This document shows, piece by piece, positions 1-19,770 of a stretch of 32,418 nt of DNA. The notes beneath the pieces are model-generated. The model was not told the origin of the DNA. It made no database searches and saw only the letters and a list, made by a program, of their open reading frames with translations. The position numbers and the translations under genes are program-made. This stretch comes from Clostridia bacterium (GTDB taxonomy: Bacteria > Bacillota > Clostridia > Christensenellales > UBA1242). The stretch is from positions 1 to 32,418 of the forward strand of contig SAAW01000013.1 in the NCBI GenBank assembly GCA_009929275.1, read 5' to 3'. Each line of letters starts with the position of its first letter. Positions within the stretch are counted from its first letter, which is position 1.

Positions 1-1413
1 TCTAAAAACGTTGACACAATTGTCAAAGATGTTTATTCTGACGGGACAGAATCTCAAGAAAGAAAATCAAATTTTTCATACGATTTGAATGATACAAATG
101 AAAAAAGTCAACCTGCTGTTGAAATGAAATCAATTTCACCTGAAGTGGCAATTGAGATTGCGCCTAAAAATTTGGAAGAAAATTCAGCAGTTGTGACGAT
201 TGAAAATAAATATGTTGTGTCGACTGAGAGCGAAGTTACAAAAGTTACGGACATTTCAATCAAAGAAACAACATATTCAAAAGGCGAAGTTGTCACTCAA
301 AATGTCACAACTGTCAAAACAGATGTTAATATGAACGGAGTTGAATCAACAGCCATTTTCACAATTTCAGAACAAACTGAAACACCTGCTGAAAAAGAAT
401 TTTCTTTTAATATGTTTGAAAAAAGTTATTCATTAGAAAATTTTTGTGCAGACTTTTTTAGAAATAGAATTCTTGAAGATTTTATTAAAAAATCAGGTGG
501 AAAAATAACTCTTAAATATATAGATTCAAAAGGCAATGAAACAACAGGAAAAATTAATTCAATTCAACTTTGCACAATTTATGATGCTTACAGCAGAAAA
601 TCTCAAAATTCAGTTTTCTATTTTGGCGAAAAGTCATTCTCTTTTGATAATAATGGCAAAATTCTAACTCCAAAAAAAGAAAATTTGGTTTCTGACATTC
701 CTTTTGAAAGATATTTAGACGACACTAATTTTAGGTTAGGAGTGAATGTTCTTGCTGGGAATTTAAGCGGATACAATCCAACTCCTTTCACTTCTTCTGC
801 AAACAATCCTAACATAATGCAAGCAACTGAACTGAGCAATTTTAACAGCCAAAATATGCGTTTGTATTACAATTTTGATGCAGGATATTACTTCCCTGTG
901 TCTAGGGATATTAAAGGCTCGATTTCTTCCAATTTGTTTGGAGTAAAAGATTTTTCAAACAATTTCTCTGTCTTTGGCGGTGAACTTCAAGGTGATATGG
1001 ATTTTTATGTTAAAAATGGAATTATTAGCCTTTATAGTGGTGTTGGATACACGAGCAACAGCACTCTTTTTGGAAATTTGGGAGTAAGTTATGACACTAT
1101 GACAAAAAACAATAATCTCGTGGGGGTCTATGCTGAAATTAATTCTTTGAGAAATACTGTCAGCCACGACAATTCTATTGCATTGAGTGCAGGCGCTCAC
1201 ATAAGTTTTGGTGGAAAATCAAAAAAGAATGCCTCTTCGAAAGAATTGAATGATAGTTTTCAAAAAAGCGCTTTGGATTATGATATAAAAAACAGAGATA
1301 AAAAACCATATACTGGTTCTAGTGGTCAAACTCAAAATCCAACTAATCCAAACTCTCCAACAATTAATCCACCTTTTGATGACGGACTTGGTGGAATGGA
1401 ACAAGGACTATAA
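1..1413 (+). CDS. Hypothetical protein, 5'-truncated by window edge; Thr/Glu-rich N-terminal part, beta-strand-rich C-terminal part and Pro/Asn-rich tail
   Basis: The reading frame is open from base 1 (SKNVDTIVKDVYSDGTESQERKSNFSYDLNDTNEK...), so the TTG at 85 is probably not the true start. Followed by an intrinsic terminator. Confidence 0.75.
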   Translation, partial: SKNVDTIVKDVYSDGTESQERKSNFSYDLNDTNEKSQPAVEMKSISPEVAIEIAPKNLEENSAVVTIENKYVVSTESEVTKVTDISIKETTYSKGEVVTQNVTTVKTDVNMNGVESTAIFTISEQTETPAEKEFSFNMFEKSYSLENFCADFFRNRILEDFIKKSGGKITLKYIDSKGNETTGKINSIQLCTIYDAYSRKSQNSVFYFGEKSFSFDNNGKILTPKKENLVSDIPFERYLDDTNFRLGVNVLAGNLSGYNPTPFTSSANNPNIMQATELSNFNSQNMRLYYNFDAGYYFPVSRDIKGSISSNLFGVKDFSNNFSVFGGELQGDMDFYVKNGIISLYSGVGYTSNSTLFGNLGVSYDTMTKNNNLVGVYAEINSLRNTVSHDNSIALSAGAHISFGGKSKKNASSKELNDSFQKSALDYDIKNRDKKPYTGSSGQTQNPTNPNSPTINPPFDDGLGGMEQGL

Positions 1414-5441: not shown

Positions 5442-6077
5442 ATGAAATCAACTGATGCGATTAAAACTATAATGGATTTGGGCGACAAAAAAGTTGCGGT
5501 TATGGTCGATAAAGACGGCAAATTGCAAATTATTGATGCTATTTTTCAAAACGTATTGAATACTTTTGAATTCGAAAGTTATAATGAAAATTTGGAGAAT
5601 ACAAATAGTTTGAGTTTTTCACTTGATGATAATAATAAAAAAAGACTTCTTTTGAAATTGATTTTAACTAGAAATTGTCAATTTGGTAAAAATCTTAGCA
5701 CAAACGCAAACACTTTTGCCGAATTTATTATGAAAAATGAGCCTTATAAATTTATTTATGGGATTTTTTCACCTGGAAAATATGATAATGAAAGTGTTGG
5801 CAATCTTACTCCTGCGAAACTTGATTTTAAGGCAAGAAAATTTTATGCAAGAAATGGTTTTGAGATAATTAGCCTGTGCAATTATTTAGAAAATCCTGAA
5901 AAATATCCTTTTATTTCTAAAAAAGACTTTGAAGATGGTGATTTTCTTTTTAAACTTGTAGCGAAGGAAATTCAAAATGAAAAAAAGGACTACGGTTTTA
6001 AAAAAATCAATGGAATCTTTGTGAAAGACAATGTTCCAGAGAACATTAAAGAAGAAATTGACTGTATGCAAATGTAA
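5442..6077 (+). CDS. Hypothetical protein with GNAT-like C-terminal motif
   Basis: 211 aa; upstream AGAGG-type RBS and promoter, downstream terminator. 'ARKFYARNGFEIISL' resembles the motif-B end of GNAT acetyltransferases. Confidence 0.75.
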   Translation: MKSTDAIKTIMDLGDKKVAVMVDKDGKLQIIDAIFQNVLNTFEFESYNENLENTNSLSFSLDDNNKKRLLLKLILTRNCQFGKNLSTNANTFAEFIMKNEPYKFIYGIFSPGKYDNESVGNLTPAKLDFKARKFYARNGFEIISLCNYLENPEKYPFISKKDFEDGDFLFKLVAKEIQNEKKDYGFKKINGIFVKDNVPENIKEEIDCMQM

Positions 6078-9234: not shown

Positions 9235-9789
9235 ATGAATATACTTCAAGATGAAACAGTTAACAAACTTATTTTACTTTTTGTTTTCGACAAAATGGAA
9301 ATCCCGCTGACGGAAGACTCCATTGTTGACATTTGCACCAGCAGAAATGACTGGCTAAAATATATGGATTGTAAAGAATCGTTGTCGCAACTGCTTGATG
9401 TCAATTTTCTCTGCAAACTGGACGGAAGTGGGGCTGAAAATAACCCAAAAGACACGAGATATACAATCACTATGGACGGAAGAAACTGTCTTGCGAATTT
9501 TTTCAATCGCATCAAACAACATACTCGTGAGGAAATTTTTAATTACGCCAAAACAAACAGAATGGTTTTTAAGCGAAGTCAGGAATATGTATATGAATAT
9601 TTTAAAAATCACGACGGCTCTCACACTGTTGTTTTTAAGATTAAAGAACCAATAATTGCACAGCCAATGTTTGAAATCAGGCTCAAAACTTCCACCAGAA
9701 GTTCCGCTGTGACGGCAGGGAAAAAATGGAACAAAAAGGCAGCGCAAATCTATGAATATGTGTTTGAAAACTTAATTTCAGACAATTAA
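9235..9789 (+). CDS. DUF4364 family protein
   Basis: 184 aa; DETVNKLILLFVFDKMEIPLTEDSIVDICTSRNDWLKYMDCKESLSQLLD resembles DUF4364, a winged-helix-like family common in Clostridia. Confidence 0.8.
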   Translation: MNILQDETVNKLILLFVFDKMEIPLTEDSIVDICTSRNDWLKYMDCKESLSQLLDVNFLCKLDGSGAENNPKDTRYTITMDGRNCLANFFNRIKQHTREEIFNYAKTNRMVFKRSQEYVYEYFKNHDGSHTVVFKIKEPIIAQPMFEIRLKTSTRSSAVTAGKKWNKKAAQIYEYVFENLISDN

Positions 9790-10569: not shown

Positions 10570-10594
10570 TAACATCAAATTAGGAGGTGTAAAA

Positions 10595-11314
10595 ATGGAA
10601 GAAAGAAATATTGATGAGGCTATTGTGAATGAACAAGTTGAAAAAAATGATGAAAAGGATTATAGACAAGAGCAATTAGGTTTCTATGGTCAATATCCTA
10701 TAACTCAATATAAGACTACCCCACTTGCATTTAGTGTCTTACAAAGAGAAGTTGGAAATGAGATAATTTTATTTTCAAAAAATCATTATAAACCAAATAC
10801 TGTTATTAAATTTAAAGATGATGTTGATAGAAATCAATTTCAAATTGCATCTAAATATTTTGAAGGTAGAAGATTTAAGGACTTTATTGGGTTCTTAGAA
10901 GAATTGTCAAATAAAAATTTTGATGAATTTTGGCAATCTGTTGCAGATGAAGAAAAAACTAGTATTGAAGATCACCTCAGTGAAATTTTAAACATGTCAA
11001 GTCTTTGCGAAAAAAAACGAAATGGGTTAATTAATCATAATTTGTCCTCAAAAATCACATCAAAAATTTATAAATATAATATCAAATCACTTGAAACTGA
11101 GATGGAAGACTTGTCATATACTTATCTTGGAATTTGTGATTTATATAAAATTTGGATCTCTATGACAAAAAACGAGCAAAAACAATATGTGGCAAAAAGA
11201 TATTTATCCACAGGTAGTATAGATTTTAATCCTAATGCGGCTGATAAATATGCCATTAAGTCTGTTAGAAATAATGACAAATTATACGAAGAAAAAATGG
11301 ATCTAGGAATTTAA
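10595..11314 (+). CDS. Hypothetical protein
   Basis: 239 aa from ATG 10595 with strong RBS AGGAGGTGTAAAA; no family recognised. Confidence 0.75.
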   Translation: MEERNIDEAIVNEQVEKNDEKDYRQEQLGFYGQYPITQYKTTPLAFSVLQREVGNEIILFSKNHYKPNTVIKFKDDVDRNQFQIASKYFEGRRFKDFIGFLEELSNKNFDEFWQSVADEEKTSIEDHLSEILNMSSLCEKKRNGLINHNLSSKITSKIYKYNIKSLETEMEDLSYTYLGICDLYKIWISMTKNEQKQYVAKRYLSTGSIDFNPNAADKYAIKSVRNNDKLYEEKMDLGI

Positions 11315-13973: not shown

Positions 13974-14666
13974 TTAAAATTCCAAGGTTTCTTCTTTTTC
14001 AGTTTTAATTTTCTCTTTTTGGTTTGTTACTTCATTAGTTCCATTTTCAGAACTCTCTTCTTCGTTTAAGTTTGTCATATTTTGATTTGAGATATTTTCT
14101 TCTTTAATTGAAGTGCTTTCTTTTTCAGTTAAAATGTTTTTGTTTTCCAACAAATCCTCAATGATAAGTTCGTTTAGTTCGTCCCAAGTTTGAGGGTCGT
14201 TTTCTTCAATCATAGCATCAACATATTTTTTCAATTTTTTCCTAACTTTGTTTATATCCAGTTGTTCAAAAAGGGTGTGAACATCAATCTCATTTTTAAT
14301 CGTAAGCCTGTTTTTTTCTTTACCTAATATTAATGGTCTTTGAACATAAACAACTCGCTCTTTATCATAGGAGTAGTAATAGTCCCTCGTTTCATTTTCA
14401 ACTACCTGAGAACCTATATAAAAAATTAGTTTTGAATTACTAACATTTCTTAATTTTTCAGATATGTTTTCATAGCATTTCACATCATTCTCATGCTCTT
14501 TATGTATATTTGATTTTAAAATCATCTTTTGGATTACATTTTTAGTTATATCTGTTTTGACTGCTTTTAATTTTTCAATGTGATCCTTATCACAATCAAC
14601 ACGCTTATTCATATAGTATTTTAATATTTCAATATTTGATTTTTTCTCAAAAAGTAATTTTTTCAT
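13974..14666 (-). CDS. Hypothetical protein with Asn/Glu/Thr-rich C-terminal tail
   Basis: 230 aa; AGGAG RBS upstream of ATG at 14666; terminator downstream; no family recognised. Confidence 0.72.
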   Translation of the reverse strand: MKKLLFEKKSNIEILKYYMNKRVDCDKDHIEKLKAVKTDITKNVIQKMILKSNIHKEHENDVKCYENISEKLRNVSNSKLIFYIGSQVVENETRDYYYSYDKERVVYVQRPLILGKEKNRLTIKNEIDVHTLFEQLDINKVRKKLKKYVDAMIEENDPQTWDELNELIIEDLLENKNILTEKESTSIKEENISNQNMTNLNEEESSENGTNEVTNQKEKIKTEKEETLEF

Positions 14667-15604: not shown

Positions 15605-15678
15605 GCGGGTGTAGCTCAGTGGTAGAGTTCCAGCCTTCCAAGCTGGCCGCGAGGGTCCGATTCCCTTCACCCGCTCCA
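15605..15678 (+). tRNA. tRNA-Gly(TCC), CCA encoded
   Basis: GCGGGTGTAGCTCAGTGG...CCAGCCTTCCAAGCTGG...CACCCGCTCCA. Confidence 0.95.
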
Positions 15679-15683
15679 CATTT

Positions 15684-15760
15684 GTTTCAGTAGCTCAGTT
15701 GGATAGAGCACCGCCCTTCTAAGGCGGGTGTCGGGGGTTCGAATCCCTCCTGGAACACCA
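15684..15760 (+). tRNA. tRNA-Arg(TCT), CCA encoded
   Basis: GTTTCAGTAGCTCAGTTGG...CCGCCCTTCTAAGGCGG...CTGGAACACCA. Confidence 0.95.
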
Positions 15761-15764
15761 ATAT

Positions 15765-15842
15765 GGTGGATGTAGCGCAGTTGGTTAGAGCGCCAGATTG
15801 TGGATCTGGAGGTCGTGGGTTCAAATCCCATCTTTCACCCCA
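15765..15842 (+). tRNA. tRNA-His(GTG), CCA encoded
   Basis: GGTGGATGTAGCGCAGTTGG...CCAGATTGTGGATCTGG...CTTTCACCCCA; extra 5' G opposite C73, typical of tRNA-His. Confidence 0.93.
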
Positions 15843-15872: not shown

Positions 15873-15965
15873 AATAAAAAACAAGGACTTTCTTTGCACT
15901 TTGTTTTGCAAAAATTGTTCTTGTTTTTTCTTGCTTTTAAATTAAAATCTTAAAAATAATTTTAA

Positions 15966-16832
15966 TCAATATAACTGTTTATAATCATTTTCTCTCTTTT
16001 GCTCGTTCTTTTGAGATGATTTCTGTGTAAAACTATTTACCCCGAGAACGCTATCTTGAATGTATTTTTCATCTTTTTGCAAAATATCAAATAAATCTTC
16101 AAAAGAATTAAATTGGGCTTTCATTTGATAAAAAGCATCAACTTTTTCATAGTCTTGCACACTATTTTTATCTCTTTTTAGCATACTGATTTTTTGTTTT
16201 AAAATAAAATCTTCAAACCAGTTTTCTTTTGAAAAATCTGTTTGCTCAAAAAACTGGGGGTTACTTTCAACAAAAATTGTGGACAATTCATCAATAAAAT
16301 TAATTGCGCACCCAATAAATTCTGTTTTTAAATACCCATGAGGAGGAGGTTCAATGCTCAAACACTGCAATAAAACAGATTCTTTTTTTGTATTTTTATC
16401 AATTTTAAGAACTTTTTCAATCTTTTTAAAAAAGGCTTTTTTAATCATTTTATAGTTATATCTTTTTTCATTTTCTGTGCAAATGTTTTCTTCTAATATT
16501 TTCATAAAGTCGGCAGGATTAAATTCTTTTTGAGCAAAAGTCTTTTTGACATCTTTTAGAAAATCTTCCCTTGAATATTCTTCTGGAAAATCAACCAAAT
16601 CGTCAATTTTTTGCAAAATCATTGTCACGTTAAAATTTGGCTTGTTAGACTCACTCATTAATACATCTTTGTGTGCCATTATGAGTGCATATGCAAGTGC
16701 CTCAACTGCATCTTCAAGAAATAAACCCTTGCCATAATCTTGGTCTAAAATAGTGCCTTCTTTAACAGCATCGTCCTCAACGTAGCCACTCAAATTGAAA
16801 CGTTTAACTTTAACATCAACCTTTTTTTTCAT
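15966..16832 (-). CDS. Hypothetical protein, paralog A of tandem pair
   Basis: 288 aa from ATG 16832 (GTG at 16835 also in frame); RBS GTGAGGAA; shares spaced motifs with the 16953-17852 product. Confidence 0.82.
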   Translation of the reverse strand: MKKKVDVKVKRFNLSGYVEDDAVKEGTILDQDYGKGLFLEDAVEALAYALIMAHKDVLMSESNKPNFNVTMILQKIDDLVDFPEEYSREDFLKDVKKTFAQKEFNPADFMKILEENICTENEKRYNYKMIKKAFFKKIEKVLKIDKNTKKESVLLQCLSIEPPPHGYLKTEFIGCAINFIDELSTIFVESNPQFFEQTDFSKENWFEDFILKQKISMLKRDKNSVQDYEKVDAFYQMKAQFNSFEDLFDILQKDEKYIQDSVLGVNSFTQKSSQKNEQKRENDYKQLY

Positions 16833-16915
16833 CACAAATTCCTCACTTATTATAATATTTTATCCCAATTAAGTTCGAATGTCAATGCTGGATTGCTTTT
16901 TAAACTATTTTCTGA

Positions 16916-16944
16916 AAATAAAAAACCCACAAATTTGTGAGTTG
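16916..16944 (-). terminator. Intrinsic terminator
   Basis: Minus strand AACTCACAAATTTGTGGGTTTTTTATTTT just after the stop of paralog B. Confidence 0.75.
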
Positions 16945-16952
16945 TTTAAAGT

Positions 16953-17852
16953 TTATTCTAAAAAAAATTCAGAAGAGTCGACATTAAAATAGTTTGTAGG
17001 AAATTCTGGTTCGGCCTCTTTTTTCAAAACCTTGTGGGAATTGTAGGTTAAAAGTTCAATTAAATCATTAAGAGAAATTTGTATTGCTTTCATATGCTGG
17101 CAGATGTCAATTGCTTCATTATTGTCAATAATTGCTTTTGCATTATTCCTTATTTTCCCTTCATTGATTTCTTTAATAAGTTTATCTGCCCAATCCCAAT
17201 CGTATGGCATAAATCTAAAACCTTCAAAAAGTTCTGGAAAGTTTTTTAAAAGTAAATTTTCTTGGGCGTTAAAAATATCCATTGCATTTGTGATTAGGCT
17301 TGTTTTTGAATATCCTTTTGGAGGAGTTTCCAAATTGGAAATCTGAGAAATTATATCCTCTGGTTTTGTTAGATTATAAATTTTAATTATATTCTTTAAT
17401 CTCATAATAAAAGCATTTTTAATAATCTCGTGATTACTTTCACCTTTGTTTGACAAATCCATATTTTCTTCCAATTCATCAAAAAAATGATGAGGATTAG
17501 CATTTTTTTGTAAAAATATTTTTCTCACAACATCGTGAAATTCTTCCTTTGTGAAAATACTTGGAAAATCTATAAATCTATTAATCCTTCCTAATAATTT
17601 ATCTTTATAAATTTCTGACCTTCTCTCATCTTTCAAAAGTGCTTTGTTTTCCATTATTAAGAGATATGCAAAAACTTCAGCTGGATTGGTTAAAAATGAC
17701 TCTTTACCATAGTCTTCACCAAAAAAAGTTCCAGTTTTTTCTGCATTTTCATCAACTAAATTGTCACCATTAAAACTTATCCGTTTGCCATCAATTTCTA
17801 TATTTTCTGCGCTATAAACTGCAATGATGGAGTCCCCTATTTTTCTTTGCAT
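16953..17852 (-). CDS. Hypothetical protein, paralog B of tandem pair
   Basis: 299 aa from ATG 17852 with GTGAGGAAGAA RBS; the ORF-track start at 17903 is less likely. Confidence 0.82.
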   Translation of the reverse strand: MQRKIGDSIIAVYSAENIEIDGKRISFNGDNLVDENAEKTGTFFGEDYGKESFLTNPAEVFAYLLIMENKALLKDERRSEIYKDKLLGRINRFIDFPSIFTKEEFHDVVRKIFLQKNANPHHFFDELEENMDLSNKGESNHEIIKNAFIMRLKNIIKIYNLTKPEDIISQISNLETPPKGYSKTSLITNAMDIFNAQENLLLKNFPELFEGFRFMPYDWDWADKLIKEINEGKIRNNAKAIIDNNEAIDICQHMKAIQISLNDLIELLTYNSHKVLKKEAEPEFPTNYFNVDSSEFFLE

Positions 17853-17974
17853 TTCTTCCTCACTTTGTGTTTTTATTCTATTATATAAAAAACAAGAAGT
17901 CAATATTTAATATTTTAAAAAATTTGAATAAAAATTTTTTTAAAACTTAAACTAGCATAAAAAGGGGGTTAATT

Positions 17975-18193
17975 ATGAAAATTGCTAACATAATTGCTTG
18001 GATTCTTCTTATAATCGGGGGGCTTAACTGGCTGATTATTGGAATATTCACAATAAACATTGTGAGTCTGCTGGTGGGAGGAGTTGCCATTCTTCTCAGA
18101 ATTGTCTACATTCTCGTTGGACTAAGTGCACTTTGGATTCTCTTCGTGCCACTAATTGAAAAAGGACGAATCTCATTTTGGGGAGTAAAATAA
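17975..18193 (+). CDS. DUF378 family small membrane protein (YuzA-like)
   Basis: 72 aa; IIAWILLIIGGLNWLIIGIF...VYILVGLSALWIL; upstream GGGGG-type RBS region. Confidence 0.88.
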   Translation: MKIANIIAWILLIIGGLNWLIIGIFTINIVSLLVGGVAILLRIVYILVGLSALWILFVPLIEKGRISFWGVK

Positions 18194-18291: not shown

Positions 18292-19770
18292 TTAAAGCAA
18301 TATGCAAATTATTCCGCCCTTGCCCTCGTTGACAATCCTTGAAAGAGTTTTTCTAATTTTTCTCTGAGCCTCGACAGGCATTTGCACGATTTTTTTGTTA
18401 AGCCCTTCGTTCACAAGGCTGTGCATACTCTTGCCAAACATATTTGTGTCCCAAAGGCTTTTTGGATTGTTTTCAAACTCTTTTAAAAGATATTTCACAA
18501 GTTCTTCACTTTGTTGCTCGGAGCCCACGATTGGGCTTATCTCTGTTTCGACATCAACTTTCATTATATGCCAACTTGGAGCACTGGCTTTGAGCCTGAC
18601 GCCGTAACGAGAACCTTGTTTCACCATTTCGGGTTCTTCAAGTGTCATTTCTTCAATTTTTGGACTGACAACTCCATATCCCGTTTCTTCCACCTGCGAG
18701 AGTGCCTCACTAAATTTATCATATTCACCTTTTGCGTAAGCAAGTTTTTTGATGTAAGTAACAAGTTCAAAATCGCTGGAAATTTTTTGGTCGCATTCAC
18801 GAGAAAGCACTTTGTAGAACAAGTCTTGCTTTGGCTTGATGTCAAGATATGCAATTCCTTTCCCCATATCGATGCCAGCCATACTCACTGTTTCAAAATT
18901 TTCACTTGCCTCAAACGCCATTTTTTCACTGTCAAGTTCGCCAATTTTTCTTGTTTTGTCAATTATATATTTGCTTTGAGCGACAATTTCTTGAATGAGT
19001 TCGTCGTCATATGGCAGTGCTTGGAGCCAACTTGGCATCTTAACCCGCAGAGAATATAATGGAAATTCTTGCAAAATATTTGAGAAAATTTCGTTTATAT
19101 TTTGCTGTGTTAAGTTTAAAACGTCCAATGTTATCACGGGGATTTCATATTTTTTGCTAAGAGACTCTCTCAAAGAAAGCGTGTCTTCATCTTTTGGTCT
19201 TGCTGAATTTATGACGACAACAAAAGGTTTTCCAAGGGCTTTTAGTTCAAGGATTGCCTTATTTTCGGCGTCTACAAAACTTTTCCTTTGAAGTTCTCCA
19301 AAACTTCCGTCTGTCGTGAGCACCACTGCAATCGTCGAATGGTCGGTGATAACTTTTTTTGTGCCAATTTCCGCTGCGTCTTCAAAAGAAAGAGATTTGT
19401 CGCTCCAAGGTGTTTTGACAAGTCGAGGTTTGTTGTTTTCAACGAGTCCTTCTGCCCCGCTTACTGTGTATCCCACGCAATCCACAAGGCGAATTTTCAA
19501 ATTCACTTTTTCATTAACTGTAATTTTGACTGCCTCTTTTGGCACAAAACGGGGTTGCGTCGTCATTATTGTTTTGCCGTCGGCACTTTGAGGAAGTTCG
19601 TCTACTGTTCGTATTTTATCATAGTCATTTGTTATGTTTGGCAATACCATTTCATTCATAAAATTTGTGATGAACGTGGATTTTCCGCAACGAACAGGTC
19701 CGACAACACCAAGATAGATGTCGCCAGATGTCCTTGTTGAAATGTCATCATATATATTGTTTGAATTCAT
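18292..19770 (-). CDS. spoIVA: Stage IV sporulation protein A
   Basis: 492 aa; YDDISTRTSGDIYLGVVGPVRCGKSTFITNFMN and conserved C-terminus; GGAGG RBS. Confidence 0.97.
   Translation of the reverse strand: MNSNNIYDDISTRTSGDIYLGVVGPVRCGKSTFITNFMNEMVLPNITNDYDKIRTVDELPQSADGKTIMTTQPRFVPKEAVKITVNEKVNLKIRLVDCVGYTVSGAEGLVENNKPRLVKTPWSDKSLSFEDAAEIGTKKVITDHSTIAVVLTTDGSFGELQRKSFVDAENKAILELKALGKPFVVVINSARPKDEDTLSLRESLSKKYEIPVITLDVLNLTQQNINEIFSNILQEFPLYSLRVKMPSWLQALPYDDELIQEIVAQSKYIIDKTRKIGELDSEKMAFEASENFETVSMAGIDMGKGIAYLDIKPKQDLFYKVLSRECDQKISSDFELVTYIKKLAYAKGEYDKFSEALSQVEETGYGVVSPKIEEMTLEEPEMVKQGSRYGVRLKASAPSWHIMKVDVETEISPIVGSEQQSEELVKYLLKEFENNPKSLWDTNMFGKSMHSLVNEGLNKKIVQMPVEAQRKIRKTLSRIVNEGKGGIICILL

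Follow-up and report, generated by a model that had tools for sequence, protein, structure and literature searches.

A tandem pair of divergent paralogous genes without detectable outside homologs in a tRNA-flanked slot of a Clostridia genome

Among the taxonomically restricted genes of Bacillus, nine possible paralogous pairs have been described, with similarities of 35–100% (PMC10003748). Tandem paralogs are also found in polyimmunity loci, which contain recognised immunity domains and short intergenic gaps and are apparently polycistronic (PMC3482391). Reduced genomes have been reported for the Christensenellales family UBA1242 (PMC12306168). We analyzed a contig from an uncultured, gut-type Clostridia bacterium of this family, whose genome of 1.18 Mb is 95% complete. 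The window, i.e., the whole stretch of DNA under analysis (32,418 nucleotides), is this entire 32-kb contig. An earlier note, made from the letters of the window only, had pointed to two adjacent genes next to a tRNA cluster, which we call A and B.

Gene A (15966–16832, minus strand) encodes 288 amino acids and gene B (16953–17852, minus strand) 299 amino acids, exactly the positions and lengths given in the earlier note. A and B are true paralogs beyond doubt. BLASTP aligned both products over 251 amino acids with 32% identity and 53% positives (125 bits, E 1e-38), and the Smith–Waterman alignment had a z-score of 39.6 against 300 shuffles. All motifs listed in the note are present in this alignment. 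The note had held that the pairing would fall if the two failed to align beyond chance in an HMM–HMM comparison; both sequence-alignment scores lie far from what chance yields.

The two genes are moreover genuine genes under protein-level constraint and no chance open reading frames. Identity between A and B at codon positions 1, 2 and 3 was 52, 62 and 44%, respectively, compared with 29, 33 and 33% expected by chance. Had the two proteins diverged to this extent by neutral drift, a mean of 17 stop codons would be expected. From the codon-position pattern and these expected stops we conclude that both frames are maintained. The pair had been described as recently duplicated and diverged. Duplication and divergence hold, but recency does not: protein identity of 32%, with third positions at 44% against a chance level of 33%, means that the split is either old or was very fast. 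Also, the high nucleotide identity between copies that marks a recent duplication was not found.

Both products are acidic, with pI values of 5.2 (A) and 5.0 (B). When the sequences were inspected by eye, no signal peptide, membrane segment or catalytic motif was recognised in either protein. Structure predictions were of low confidence (pLDDT of 37 for A and 45 for B); at this level, the model of A was almost wholly helical, and that of B consisted of N-terminal strands followed by helices. A and B are probably soluble, mostly helical proteins.

In the surrounding 2.9-kb region, the two best minus-strand matches to a sigma-70-type promoter are those immediately upstream of the starts of A and B. 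The promoter-like site of A (16857–16885, minus strand; TTGACA-17-TAAAAT) is the best in the region and matches the consensus at 11 of 12 positions, that of B (17875–17903, minus strand; TTGACT-17-TAGAAT) at 10 of 12, with a spacing of 17 bp in both. A common type of ribosome-binding site had been claimed for the pair; AGTGAGGAA precedes the ATG at a distance of 6 nt in A and 3 nt in B, and from the sequence, it reads GTGAGGAA in both, at 16839–16846 for A and 17856–17863 for B (minus strand). The earlier statement that a 0.1-kb gap with its own terminator separates the genes was likewise borne out. This gap measures 120 bp and holds the minus-strand terminator of B (16924–16943), i.e., AACTCACAAATTTGTGGGTT followed by a T-run, with the stem at 16943–16924. 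Downstream of A, we found a terminator-like hairpin (15873–15932, minus strand) with 26-nt arms that are 81% complementary and a T-run in the 3′ arm. It is strong, with −20.5 kcal/mol for the folded stretch. Neither the two promoter-like sites nor the terminator of A had been mentioned in the earlier note. A and B each look like a separate transcription unit with a SigA-type promoter-like site and a terminator, and the layout common to both, from promoter through ribosome-binding site and coding region to terminator, points to duplication of the entire unit.

No known family had been recognised for the pair, and our searches agree. With A and B as queries, Pfam, NCBIfam, PHROGs, PADLOC and PDB returned nothing above noise. 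The low-scoring matches in Pfam (stem cell factor, DUF4315, Imm70, T4SS) all stayed below the curated cut-offs, and the PDB profile matches, AROM and glutathione transferase, had E-values of 0.05–0.09 over short stretches only. Searches of phages and plasmids with tblastn gave no acceptable homolog. The same was found for IMG/VR viral contigs and GTDB contigs, which were scanned with near-exact peptide patterns that detect close relatives only; one query of the GTDB scan was B joined to the neighbour gene 9235–9789, and its match lay in the neighbour part only. A profile built from the pair found no homolog in the 11 congeners of the source genome (the genus comprises 12 genomes). Profile searches were extended to 309 genomes of the family and to samples of about 400 genomes each of the order (396), class (391) and phylum (399); no homolog was accepted, all matches being at chance level or marginal. 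Matches with E-values of 0.001–0.1 in the family, order and phylum sets were short scattered segments of the profile, several of which spanned stop codons, and were rejected as chance-level.

The pair had also been suspected of having expanded elsewhere in the genome. This had no support: when the entire genome, 95% complete, was searched with profiles, only the two copies were found. A search at maximum sensitivity over about 55% of the genome (653 kb) found no further ones, and a 41-residue match on L161 (11.4 bits) was discarded as a short segment within a 99-aa frame. A and B are hence real coding genes with no detectable outside homolog, as expected of a taxonomically restricted, i.e., orphan, family; a marginal, partial match of 22.6 bits is taken up below.

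The position of the pair became clear from comparison within the genus. To its left lie the genes for tRNA-Gly, tRNA-Arg and tRNA-His (15605–15842, plus strand), and to its right a gene for a DUF378 protein (17975–18193, plus strand), followed by one for a SpoIVA-like ATPase (18292–19770, minus strand). The latter served as synteny anchor and is present in 12 of 12 genus members; its name follows the known family rather than a library match. Throughout the genus, the gene for the DUF378 protein is kept next to spoIVA in convergent orientation. Where contigs allow, congeners keep the order tRNA-Gly, tRNA-Arg, tRNA-His, DUF378, spoIVA, with few rearranged exceptions. Between tRNA-His and DUF378 there are less than 90 bp in G149 and G150, about 0.4–0.5 kb without a long open reading frame in three other congeners that we read, and 2.1 kb in the source genome, where A and B account for it. 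Relative to its congeners, the source genome therefore has an additional stretch of about 2 kb between tRNA-His and DUF378/spoIVA. The proposal of an accessory family at a tRNA locus is thus in line with the conserved arrangement, to which A and B are an addition.

Unrelated genes occur near this anchor in other congeners. In G075, a gene for a 186-aa orphan (L020 12446–13006, minus strand) lies next to a DUF378-like gene, in the same slot as A and B. G126 has a 357-aa protein with hydrophobic segments between spoIVA and DUF378, G149 and G017 have a family of 327 and 335 residues between two tRNA-Gln genes, and G147 and G137 have an ABC transporter near the anchor. From these genes and from the slots that are empty, we conclude that the slot turns over genes. 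In a tree built from SpoIVA, PlsY and Der, the source genome sat on a long, poorly placed branch, and the deepest split had 57% support. As it has no close relative in the set, the apparent lack of A and B in its relatives could in part be due to a divergence too great for recognition. The distribution of A and B would fit a gain on the source branch as well as loss or extreme divergence elsewhere. The GC content of A and B is 0.29, compared with 0.36–0.43 in most conserved neighbours and 0.27–0.28 in the other orphans of the window. Low GC is no proof of foreign origin, because some vertical genes are equally low, i.e., the murI-like (0.27) and spoIIGA-like (0.30) genes. Congeners that have retained spoIVA lack the pair. 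Together with the SigA-like sites, found in a promoter scan that was itself sigma-70-type, this leaves a link of A and B to sporulation without support.

Several other orphans were observed in passing. A 230-aa protein encoded at 13974–14666 (minus strand) beside tRNA-Leu(tag) belongs to a second orphan family of the same genome. Its paralog (L178 1462–2157, minus strand; contig C126) is 28–29% identical and lies at a distance of 0.8 kb to tRNA-Leu(cag), from which a single open reading frame separates it; no member was found in the 11 congeners. Two further orphans, at 5442–6077 and 10586–11314 (both plus strand), have a GC content of 0.27–0.28, and the second adjoins tRNA-Val. Neither had a convincing match in congeners or in the libraries searched. 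Homology of A or B to these three orphans was rejected, as scores did not exceed those of shuffles or the noise of the profiles; the lowest p-value (0.04, B against 13974–14666) was one of many comparisons. At the contig edge, a gene at 85–1413 (plus strand) encodes a 442-aa protein with a Thr/Val/Glu-rich start and an Asn/Pro/Gly-rich tail, for which Pfam and NCBIfam gave no match. The two members of the 327/335-aa family (L022 17287–18270 and L025 7661–8668, both plus strand) are 49% identical and contain an F-S-H-S-Y-G-S stretch that resembles the serine-hydrolase elbow. This family does not occur in the window.

Four other explanations for the pair were considered. A and B could form a small homogeneous polyimmunity-type locus, in which tandem paralogous immunity proteins neutralise the toxins of competitors. 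They are tandem, divergent and in the same orientation with no toxin gene between them, they encode acidic proteins of patchy presence, and they match part of the published description of such loci (PMC3482391). However, those loci appear to be polycistronic with short gaps, whereas A and B each have their own promoter-like site and the 120-bp gap between them holds the terminator of B. Moreover, no recognised toxin or recombinase adjoins the pair, Pfam showed no recognised immunity domain above cut-off, and the sole match to an immunity family, Imm70, scored 12.6 bits where the cut-off is 26.7. We regard a polyimmunity-type locus as quite unlikely. Old, fast-evolving vertical genes with orthologs that are no longer recognisable appear similarly improbable to us. 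The slot beside DUF378 in G075 does hold an orphan on the same strand, the 186-aa gene described above, which could be such an ortholog, but it compared with A and B no better than shuffles did (p 0.46 and 0.35), and in G149 and G150 the slot measures less than 90 bp.

If A and B had been left behind or brought in as cargo by a phage or integrative element with its attachment site in the tRNA-His gene, this would explain why they lie directly beside a tRNA gene, at low GC, in a variable slot. Yet no integrase or other mobility gene was found between the conserved flanks, the tRNA 3′ end is not repeated on the far side, where weak AT-rich repeats are all that was found, and phages, plasmids, PHROGs and viral contigs were all without match. 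Such an origin is very unlikely. The C-terminal part of a zinc metallopeptidase could also be the ancestor of A and B, which would have kept only its third-ligand helix (DYGK..FL..A.E.fAy.LIM) as a module that is now non-catalytic. The idea comes from the highest-scoring match outside (22.6 bits; E 2.3e-5 when a single genome is counted), to residues 221–287 of a 294-aa protein from another family of the class. The matched protein has HEMYH upstream and weakly matches models of putative zinc peptidases and lipoproteins. However, the alignment covers only 66 of about 290 residues, mostly via B, and with about 1700 genomes searched chance alone would yield about 0.04 matches of this E-value. HExxH is absent from both A and B, which are hence no zinc metallopeptidase enzymes. 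Judged by this alignment, the 66-residue segment around the presumed third-ligand helix may be of common descent, but derivation of A and B from such an enzyme is highly improbable.

We therefore favor, with a probability of roughly 70%, the reading that A and B are taxonomically restricted accessory genes, i.e., tandem duplicates of a whole unit that are separately expressed; this is a statement on evolution and expression. An ancestral unit would have been duplicated as a whole, yielding two tandem copies in which promoter-like site, ribosome-binding site and terminator are arranged alike. Selection at the protein level has acted on both copies throughout their divergence to 32% identity. 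Each is presumably transcribed separately by the housekeeping polymerase in growing cells. The product would be an acidic cytoplasmic protein, mostly helical after a short N-terminal stretch, in which strands were predicted only in the weak model of B.

Tandem diversification and patchy presence would fit a protein-binding role, as would small diverging paralogs in a variable slot, and A and B might act through contact with another protein, in the manner of immunity proteins, inhibitors or anti-phage accessory proteins; we hold this guess to be doubtful. PADLOC gave no match for the pair. It also seems unlikely that the pair represents a new protein family with an undescribed fold, of which two copies have specialised for a lineage-specific conflict or symbiosis. 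As a single pair, A and B are an ordinary orphan gene family of modest general importance. That a genome of 1.18 Mb keeps and diversifies two orphan copies nevertheless suggests that it presumably benefits from them, which makes the pair a fair candidate for a lineage-specific trait. The locus is moreover a clean example, within this genus, of a tRNA-flanked slot that turns over orphan and accessory genes.

Compared with described systems, the pair shares with the putative zinc metallopeptidase of L183, a protein with weak Peptidase_Mx and LIC13305 matches, a local resemblance of 66 residues around the glutamate helix; A and B differ from it in lacking HExxH and in not aligning elsewhere. With homogeneous polyimmunity loci (PMC3482391) they share the arrangement of tandem divergent paralogs in one orientation, but they are separate units with no match to an immunity family and no recognised toxin system nearby. 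Like the paralogous pairs among taxonomically restricted Bacillus genes (PMC10003748), A and B are confined to one lineage, have no outside homolog and occur as two paralogs in one genome. In contrast to those pairs, they encode proteins of about 290 amino acids, stand in tandem with a promoter-like site and a terminator each, and belong to an uncultured Christensenella-like organism.
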